From the NCBI RefSeq assembly GCF_000337175.1, contig NZ_AOIJ01000030.1:413-64412 (forward strand): a stretch of DNA of 64,000 nt, read 5' to 3'. This stretch comes from Natrinema gari JCM 14663. GTDB taxonomy: Archaea; Halobacteriota; Halobacteria; Halobacteriales; Natrialbaceae. A program made the translations under genes and the position numbers. The notes under the pieces were generated by a model, which saw only the letters and a list, made by a program, of their open reading frames with translations, was not told where the DNA came from and did not search any database. Shown here piece after piece: positions 14,251-16,249 of this stretch (its first letter is position 1; the number at the start of each line of letters is the position of its first letter).

Positions 14251-14425
14251 GGGGTCGTGGCCAAGCCAGGCATGGCGGCTGACTCCAGAGGCAACGCGCC
14301 CGGGACGACACTCCAGACTGATATACTGATCGGGCACCTGATCAGTGCTCGTGTGATGACCCTCTGGAGTTCCGAGGCGCACCGGAGATATCAGTAGATC
14401 GGGGGTTCAAATCCCTCCGACCCCA
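14251..14425 (+). tRNA. trnW: tRNA-Trp (anticodon CCA) with a 101-nt intron
   Basis: Exon 1 is 14251-14288 and exon 2 is 14390-14425. The spliced RNA folds as a standard tRNA: acceptor GGGGTCG/CGACCCC, D stem GCCA/TGGC, anticodon stem GCTGA/TCAGT with loop CTCCAGA (anticodon CCA), and a T arm with TTCAAAT. No CCA tail is encoded. The splice sites form a canonical bulge-helix-bulge: central helix CTCC (14283-14286) with GGAG (14384-14387), flanked by 3-nt bulges AGA (14287-14289) and ATA (14388-14390). This is the structure cut by the archaeal splicing endonuclease. Confidence 0.96.
14289..14389 (+). ncRNA. Box C/D guide RNA inside the tRNA-Trp intron
   Basis: The intron contains box C GTGATGA (14353-14359), box D CTGA (14326-14329) and a D'-like CCGA (14372-14375). 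The guide before CCGA (CTCTGGAGT) pairs with ACTCCAGAG of exon 1 and the intron start, and its fifth base pairs with C34. The guide before CTGA (CTGATAT) pairs with ATATCAG across the 3' splice site, and its fifth base pairs with U39. This matches the known haloarchaeal pre-tRNA-Trp intron that directs 2'-O-methylation of C34 and U39. Because the second target spans the splice junction, it must act on the unspliced precursor. Confidence 0.93.
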
Positions 14426-14811
14426 TTCTCATCTTAACTTTAACGTAACCCTTCAGAGAGAAAGATCTTGGAGAATACCCTATTTTTCGGGGTGGTGCGC
14501 ATGACGGTTTTCGAGCGCACCGAGTATACTCGATACTTCAGTTATCGGTGCCGTCACCCATGGTGTCGATGGCAATGCCTCAATCGAGCGGACGACTTCG
14601 TCATCTGGGGACGAGTCTGTCACGATCACCACATCTCATCGACGGTGGCGACTTCCGTGATCGGCTGTACCCTGCTCTCCAGTTACTGACGATCGCTCTC
14701 GAGGACCGCGGGCTCGTCGAGTGTGCTATACCAGGGGCCACAGAAGCGGCCGAAGCTCCTCCTTGTGGAGGCTGAGGCTGCTGCCCTCTATGTAGTTTGT
14801 CTGAAGCAGTT
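14426..14811. other. AT-richer intergenic region after tRNA-Trp, with a repeat and hairpin
   Basis: 386 bp without a supported gene. Short open frames (for example 14468-14689 and 14548-14775) lack any recognisable domain. Near the right end is a copy of a repeat (14725-14762) and a hairpin CCTCC-TTGT-GGAGG (about 14759-14772). The hairpin lies just beyond the stop codon of the minus-strand nuclease gene and could serve as its 3' end. Confidence 0.5.
14725..14762 (+). repeat. Imperfect direct repeat, copy A, flanking the nuclease gene
   Basis: GCTATACCAGGGGCCACAGA followed by AGCGGCCGAAGCTCC. The first 26 bases match copy B (15980-16018) at 22 positions. The copies lie on either side of the AT-rich gene at 14812-15837. 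They may be remnants of a mobile element or of the event that brought the gene in. Confidence 0.5.
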
Positions 14812-15837
14812 TTACTCGGCGAACTCGATATTGGTGTATTTGAAGGGGTACGTTCTCACGCCTTCCTCGCTGCAGTAGTCGGCTAACTCCCTTACGGGCG
14901 TTTGTTTCCAATCAGAGCCGTTCTCAGTCAGTTGCTCAACGAATACAACGTTGACTGCTTCGTATCCCCTCTCTTCTGGATCAAGTCGCTCCGTCACAAG
15001 GCCAGTGTTGGGATCTTCGTCTTCTGTCTTGACGACACGATCTCCTGGCTCAAAGGGATTCTTCGCTAACTCCAGATTCGAGTACTTATACGGATACGTC
15101 CGTATGTTCTGATCGTCGCAGTACGATGCAAGCTTAGCGGGGTGGATCTCTCTCCAATCCCCTGGTCCCTCATCCAGTTGCGGAACGAACGCTACGTTGA
15201 CCGCTTCATAGCTTAACTTCTCTGGCGGCAATCGCTCAATCACAACGGCAGTGTCCGAATCCTCCTCTTCTCCCTTCACGACCCGATCGCCAGGTGTGAA
15301 TGGATTCTTCGGGTTCTGCTTCATTTGAGCAGTGCTCGGCCCGAGTTCGATCAGTTCGTTCATCGGTCGCGCAGCGAGGTGGTCCAGTTTGTCCGGCTCG
15401 TCGCCAGAATATTCCTCCTGCGTTTCCGCCTTCGATTTCAGCGTCTCTACGCGCTCCCAGCCGAGTAGAATCAGGGCATCTTCGTTATCCCGATGCCACG
15501 CCATCACGATGATATCATCTTGGTCATCCGTCTCGAGCATTCGCTCTGGAAGAAATGCAGAGACGTCACGCGAAGTCTTCACATCTATCTCATAGCCGAA
15601 GACCTCGAAGTCATAACCAGAGAAGCTTTCTGGATTACATCTCCGCATAGCATATTCGTTTTCCCAGTCCCACATTTCGACAGGGATAAATTCTCGACAG
15701 AACCGTTCGAATGCCATTTCCCCTAGGTTTCCAATTCGTTTCACGTCAACGTCGCCTGCGTTCGTTTCCGTGACCTGTTTGAGTGCCTGGTGATGCGCAC
15801 GCTCCTGGTCGATCTCGTCGGGAGTATATCGGTACAT
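14812..15837 (-). CDS. PD-(D/E)XK-like nuclease with two tandem C-terminal repeat domains
   Basis: 341 aa. The N-terminal domain (about residues 30-130) has the order of PD-(D/E)XK nucleases: a helix with Glu40 (RIGNLGEMAFERF), Asp76 in SGYDFEV, then the strand YEIDVKTS with Asp85-x-Lys87. This resembles DUF3883-type or restriction-like endonucleases. Residues about 178-257 and 260-339 are two copies of one module: NPFTPGDRVVK / NPFEPGDRVVK, SYEAVNVAFV / GYEAVNVVFV and RTYPYKYSN / RTYPFKYTN, with a period of 82 residues. The gene is much richer in A+T than its neighbours. No methylase or partner is adjacent. A single-gene defence or DNA-repair role is only a guess. Confidence 0.75.
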   Translation of the reverse strand: MYRYTPDEIDQERAHHQALKQVTETNAGDVDVKRIGNLGEMAFERFCREFIPVEMWDWENEYAMRRCNPESFSGYDFEVFGYEIDVKTSRDVSAFLPERMLETDDQDDIIVMAWHRDNEDALILLGWERVETLKSKAETQEEYSGDEPDKLDHLAARPMNELIELGPSTAQMKQNPKNPFTPGDRVVKGEEEDSDTAVVIERLPPEKLSYEAVNVAFVPQLDEGPGDWREIHPAKLASYCDDQNIRTYPYKYSNLELAKNPFEPGDRVVKTEDEDPNTGLVTERLDPEERGYEAVNVVFVEQLTENGSDWKQTPVRELADYCSEEGVRTYPFKYTNIEFAE

Positions 15838-16249
15838 ACTATCGGAGATAACTGCTGAATCTGGTTGGCCAGATAAAAAGTCTACCTATCATCGGTCTTC
15901 CTCGTGCCACAACTGCTCTGACCGACTCTGCCACCCACCGACCAACCCAGTATGGTCGGGTCCGGATCGTCACCAGTTCGCTAAACCAGAGGCCATAGAA
16001 GCGGTCTCAGCCCTCGCCAGCAGGACCCTCGGCCGCTTCTAATTAGTAGATACGAACAGTCCACTCTGTTGAATCGGTGCTGAGTCACGCGGTTCACACA
16101 GTCGGTCACTGTTGATAATGGCGACTGTCGGGACGTTTTCACGGAACTTCGATACCAGCCAAGCGCTCGCACGGCATCGCCGAGCGCTTCCTGACCGCTG
16201 GTGGACTCGCCCGAAACTGTTAGGCTCATCCACACGTCAGCGGACGGTA
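15838..16249. other. Intergenic region with element remnants
   Basis: 412 bp. The left end holds the nuclease promoter (minus-strand TTTTTATC about 40 bp before its ATG). The middle carries repeat copy B and a third, inverted partial copy (16033-16040 with flanks), forming an AGAAGCGG / CCGCTTCT inverted pair. Minus-strand frames near 16040-16235 look like scraps of a degraded gene, but I cannot name a family. Confidence 0.45.
15980..16018 (+). repeat. Imperfect direct repeat, copy B, with a nearby inverted partial copy
   Basis: GCTAAACCAGAGGCCATAGA followed by AGCGGTCTCAGCC matches copy A at 14725-14762 (22 of the first 26 bases). The motif AGAAGCGG at 15997-16004 recurs inverted at 16033-16040 (CCGCTTCT). 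The inverted copy reads AGAAGCGGCCGA on the minus strand, closer to copy A than to copy B. This suggests terminal repeats of a small degraded element. Confidence 0.5.

Follow-up and report, generated by a model that had tools for sequence, protein, structure and literature searches.

What does a single AT-rich gene beside a tRNA gene encode, and how did it come to lie in a haloarchaeal genome? The gene occupies positions 14812..15837 on the minus strand of the window, the 64,000-nucleotide stretch of Natrinema gari JCM 14663 DNA analysed here. Its open reading frame starts with ATG and encodes a protein of 341 amino acids. The GC content is 52.3%, compared to 65.1% for the whole 64-kb window, in agreement with the AT-richness recorded in a first-pass annotation of the sequence.

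A haloarchaeal protein family and its N-terminal core

The protein belongs to the haloarchaeal family phrog_18072 (PHROGs v4, no assigned function), whose profile it matches at E 1.7e-154. This match, accompanied by the low dN/dS ratio against the closest copy given below, places the ORF beyond chance. No significant match was obtained in Pfam, NCBIfam or PDB sequences, and none of the PADLOC models matched at E<=10. The family was matched in 121 of the 391 Halobacteria genomes sampled. Among 392 genomes of the phylum, all 27 family matches fall in the same order, and no homologues were found outside Halobacteria. A single bacterial plasmid match (E 2e-2) was taken as chance, and the viral contigs searched to deepen the alignment contained zero family members. 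From 102 full-length rows, 96 distinct members were retained as the set for all family conservation counts. The protein of G004, a genome of the same genus, is identical to that of Natrinema altunense AJ2 (contig L037). HfxHg1_080 of Haloferax virus Halfgib1 belongs to the same family, with 62% identity (tblastn).

The open subset of PubMed Central, which subscription papers mostly lie outside, yielded no paper that deals with the family or with a defence slot in pleolipoviruses. A copy of the family gene is carried by plasmid pHLAC01, which strain ACAM34_UNSW has lost; for the resistance of this strain, its authors suggested CRISPR (PMC10544981). The loss of the plasmid indicates nothing specific about the gene.

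Upstream of the gene lies a TATA-like box at 15872..15880 (minus strand), corresponding to positions -43 to -35 relative to the ATG. Across 70 family upstream regions, the AT fraction is highest at -34 to -26, reaching about 0.9 at six of these nine positions, so that the box of the window copy is situated about nine bases further upstream than the family box. Judged by composition, the family peak fits a TATA box combined with leaderless transcripts.

Residues 1-176 (15310..15837, minus strand) form the N-terminal core, for which a nuclease of the PD-(D/E)XK type had been proposed on the basis of Glu40, Asp76 and Asp85-x-Lys87. All four residues are found at these places, and none of them varies among the 96 distinct family members. 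They are also retained in all three distant homologues (L157, L158 and L160), whose identity to the core of the window protein is 27-36%; L159, a near copy of L158 (97%), was excluded from this count. Absence of the acidic residues in homologues, which the first-pass annotation had named as an argument against a nuclease, is thus not observed. The four loci L157 to L160 carry the same N-terminal motif joined to a different C-terminal part. The core contains 54 columns that are invariant in the family, of which 13 are also common to the three distant homologues, and the chance that all four motif residues fall within these 13 is 0.002. The order Glu, Asp, Asp-x-Lys is shared with lone PD-(D/E)XK restriction enzymes (type II or type IV-like, e.g. 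Mrr). DNA cutting is common to both readings, and for the family we infer it from the motif.

The nuclease-like motif is thus retained even in distant homologues, and neither a profile match nor a structure match supports the core fold. AlphaFold models of the core from 10 and 11 sequences were both poor. The core-only model (mean pLDDT 49) places a helix at 30-50, strands at 76-79, 82-85, 110-117 and 121-128, and a helix at 130-139, and at this low confidence the order of elements is compatible with a PD-(D/E)XK domain (alpha-beta-beta-beta-alpha-beta). Fold searches with this model gave no meaningful PDB match, with no restriction enzyme among the matches listed, and hhalign against Mrr gave a probability of 0.3% and no usable profile-profile score. 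Because the models are poor and no PDB match was found, it is on motif evidence that we call the core a likely PD-(D/E)XK-like nuclease.

Predicted SH3/Tudor-like barrels in the C-terminal half

The C-terminal half is composed of the two tandem modules already recognized in the first-pass annotation, with their NPFxPGDRVVK and RTYP(Y/F)KY motifs. Module 1 comprises residues 177-258 (15064..15309, minus strand) and is the conserved one, while module 2 comprises residues 259-341 (14815..15063, minus strand). The two modules of the window protein, of 82-83 residues each, are 57% identical in protein and 71% identical over 143 nt in DNA. Structure prediction, which had been suggested for one module, pointed to a fold that the earlier account had missed: AlphaFold models the modules as small barrels with block pLDDT values mostly of 75-87. 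Tudor/Agenet proteins occupy the top Foldseek rows (E 7e-4 to 3e-2), and VIA-align gives module Z scores of up to 7.3 against SH3-like barrels, a value below 8 that therefore identifies the fold class and not the function. We accordingly describe the modules as predicted SH3/Tudor-like barrels. The Tudor/Agenet proteins ZGPAT, AGDP1, 53BP1 and Crb2 contain tandem barrels, as modelled for the family protein. They are, however, eukaryotic and mostly histone readers, with 8-15% identity to the modules and no sign of a common ligand. The usual reader domains of lone restriction enzymes are SRA, EVE/PUA and winged-helix domains. In their place, the phrog_18072 protein would carry SH3/Tudor-like modules.

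A survey of module architecture, also suggested in the first-pass annotation, showed two modules in 80 of the 96 distinct members and one in the remaining 16, the latter organization being that of the 265-residue Halfgib1 protein, compared to two modules in the 341 residues of the window protein. Mean pairwise identity is 82% for the core, 73% for module 1 and 47% for module 2 (78 two-module members, leaving out the window copy and that of G028, another species of the genus). The diverged loops DEGPGDW and TENGSDW are present as described, but the accompanying suggestion that the two modules recognize distinct targets is unsupported: DEGPGDW of module 1 is nearly constant across the family, and module 2 merely evolves faster. 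Module 2 of the window protein is closest to its own module 1, at an identity that is the highest among the 80 two-module proteins and is shared with the G028 copy, and the window protein is placed in a mostly one-module clade of the family tree. We considered an independent duplication in the window lineage and did not retain it, since losing a module in the sister branch makes an equally short account, and a single module-2 clade is not rejected by the AU test (p 0.70). Among 74 members with neighbourhoods, one-module proteins occur in proviruses in 12 of 15 cases, compared to 9 of 59 for two-module proteins (Fisher 4e-6). Independent tree pairs (3 to 5 pairs) do not support a rule linking one module to proviruses, and the association is a pattern only.

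A provirus relic behind tRNA-Trp

The tRNA gene noted beside the 341-aa gene is located at 14251..14425 (plus strand). This intron-containing gene of 175 nt is found by Rfam and missed by ARAGORN; its anticodon, CCA by inspection, identifies it as tRNA-Trp, and the site is an integration hotspot. Comparison of 20 genomes of the genus showed a conserved left flank and tRNA. In 19 of them, the DNA following the tRNA departs from that of the window after no more than about 80 bp; in the remaining one, G004, the contig stops at the tRNA. The right flank of the window picks up again at 16194 in G004 and G034. The comparison of flanks therefore delimits 14426 to 16193 (1.8 kb) as the variable segment of the window.

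The nearest copy of the gene, that of G028, encodes a protein with 98% identical residues. There, some 11 kb separate the gene from the same tRNA-Trp upstream, and it is embedded in a pleolipovirus-like provirus with a GC content of 54%, similar to that of the window gene. This stretch encodes homologues of the Halfgib1 proteins Rep (40%), VP3 (46%), spike (24%), ORF7 (39%), VP8 NTPase (47%), a repressor-like wHTH protein (41%) and integrase (28%). The window and G028 genes differ by 72 synonymous and 7 non-synonymous changes, and the resulting dN/dS of 0.02 spans both lineages and gives no date for the loss of the remaining provirus. Judged from these substitutions, the window gene is under strong purifying selection, with its function kept.

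Three pieces of DNA around the window gene recur in G028. The post-tRNA sequence at 14427..14505 (plus strand) is common to G028 (75%) and in part to G163 and G302. A hairpin segment at 14742..14782 has a counterpart close to the gene in the provirus of G028 (95% over 41 nt), and the segment at 15931..16004 (87% over 75 nt) lies there on the opposite side of the gene. The post-tRNA sequence, the two short provirus segments and the nuclease-like gene are what is left in the window. A search of the 64 kb for provirus proteins returned none besides the 341-aa gene product, so that the window copy does not sit among pleolipovirus genes. On the strength of the flanking DNA shared with G028, the window copy is a provirus relic. 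We read 14426-16193 as this relic plus repeat debris, and the gene is apparently the last one of a dead virus that still works. New relative to the first-pass annotation are the barrel fold, the virus family and the origin from a provirus.

Two further features were observed in the segment. Direct repeats of 20 bp (14730..14749 and 15985..16004, both plus strand) flank the gene 1,255 bp apart and are identical at 18 of 20 positions, compared to a best of 14-15 of 20 in shuffled sequence; the adjoining segments are ordered differently in the G028 provirus. At 16064-16186, an approximately 120-bp sequence with many copies in several genus genomes is perhaps an insertion-sequence or MITE relic.

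The provirus slot and the candidate exclusion function

Neighbourhoods were available for 86 family loci, some of them broken copies, after 11 locus names had been set aside as duplicates. Apart from the window, these comprise 21 pleolipovirus proviruses (20 recognized through VP8 and the other through spike, wHTH and integrase) and 64 loci without a provirus by the criterion used. In all 13 provirus loci with both neighbours scored, the family gene is positioned between the VP8 NTPase and the integrase. An independent search for VP8-NTPase loci (E<=1e-50, 391 genomes) returned 49, of which 16 carry the family gene within 8 kb (0.09 expected by chance) and 33 lack it; it is therefore frequent but dispensable cargo.

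Furthermore, we scanned 10 of the 31 other genes of this slot, mostly the larger ones, with genes of 411, 274 and 248 aa left out. PADLOC matches at E<=1e-20 were obtained for 5 of the 10, compared to about 6 of 140 control genes (7 if two CARF rows are not counted as one protein; Fisher ~2e-4). Three of the five belong to one virus, Halfgib1: a type II enzyme (REase_II 3.1e-30), a type II methylase (5.2e-107) and a SIR2 protein (1.5e-52). The others are PDC-S45 in L097 (1.1e-25) and PDC-S59 in L092 (2.0e-29); L089 gave weak matches, and four of the scanned genes gave none. The predicted type II enzyme, the cytosine methylase, the family nuclease-like gene and the SIR2 protein are adjacent in the Halfgib1 genome (L181, 8994-14219). 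The Halfgib1 provirus has been described (PMC7911831) and its SIR2 protein noted (PMC9503650); the passages concerned do not discuss the family nuclease.

Outside proviruses, no conserved partner gene was found in the 86 neighbourhoods, consistent with the one-gene unit proposed earlier. The defence islands whose survey had been recommended did not clearly emerge there: PADLOC matches among 146 neighbours are not clearly above those of 140 random-region genes. Within the best 25 of 57 families, these matches include PDC-S11 in 5, HNH in 2 and REase_II in 2. Annotated plasmids with the family gene show islands (BREX, restriction genes) in some cases and a plain context in others. On a Salinigranum marinum plasmid (L212, 3378-5465), E2/UBC and ThiF genes lie a few genes from the family copy.

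We give about an even chance to the explanation that the protein is a provirus-derived, self-contained, one-gene restriction-like exclusion nuclease, probably a DNA-cutting defence against rival viruses. The gene would be transcribed from its own promoter, suggested by the conserved TATA-like box, and expression in the dormant provirus state is likely because it adjoins the repressor and integrase genes with that promoter. One or two SH3/Tudor-like barrels would attach the protein to foreign DNA or to a DNA-bound protein, and the N-terminal PD-(D/E)XK-like domain would then cleave the DNA, keeping competing viruses or plasmids out of the provirus-carrying cell. Prophage-carried defence cargo for superinfection exclusion is likewise accessory and adjoins repressor-like and integrase genes, together with other defence genes. 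Here, the carrier is a pleolipovirus.

Among the alternatives, the most probable, although unlikely, is an abortive-infection or toxin-like nuclease with triggered cutting of host DNA or RNA, whose barrels would sense an infection protein. It requires no methylase, and the SIR2 neighbour in Halfgib1 is of the effector type, but the 86 neighbourhoods contain no conserved antitoxin or sensor partner. Next in standing, and improbable, is a nuclease serving the virus itself in replication, resolution, packaging or takeover. The fixed place between VP8 and integrase agrees with such a role; against it, the gene is missing near two thirds of the VP8 loci (33/49), 64 of 86 loci show no provirus by the criterion used, and among 24 records with a VP8-like match in a phage collection the nuclease occurs in Halfgib1 only.

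More doubtful still is a restriction enzyme from a standard type II restriction-modification pair whose methylase is encoded elsewhere. In Halfgib1 the dcm gene adjoins the family gene, and a Dam-like gene lies two genes away in five other loci. Homologues of the two seeds used (Dcm and Dam), however, lie within 8 genes of the family gene in just 6 of 86 loci, and Halfgib1 dcm is flanked on its other side by its own predicted type II enzyme. The same two seeds found no homologue in the 64-kb window, in line with the earlier view that this is not a plain restriction system. A regulator that binds DNA or protein and only resembles a nuclease in its motif would suit the poor core models and the lack of a profile match, but is the least probable reading given the four motif residues retained in the 96 members and the three distant homologues.

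For the exclusion nuclease, self-protection through methylation is unlikely because homologues of the two methylase seeds are near in so few loci and the methylase of Halfgib1 comes with a predicted enzyme of its own. What therefore remains is a type IV-like rule, in which a modification or structure would be found only in the invader, or a protein-docking rule with a docking partner; either would most simply spare self, and both fit a Tudor-like reader as modelled.

More tentatively, we postulate that pleolipoviruses may hold a dedicated defence-cargo slot between NTPase and integrase, with the family as a frequent tenant, and that this tenant could represent a new nuclease class, free of any methylase, guided by a modification or a protein, equipped with a Tudor-like reader and kept by the host after virus decay. 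No paper naming such a slot was found in the open PubMed Central subset. Such a slot would mark the place of accessory defence genes in small archaeal membrane-vesicle viruses. For an uncharacterised family present in about one third of the haloarchaeal genomes sampled, these observations propose a testable function, that of a possible restriction-like enzyme with an unusual predicted reader fold. Should the barrels recognize modified DNA, prokaryotic restriction would gain a novel kind of reader.
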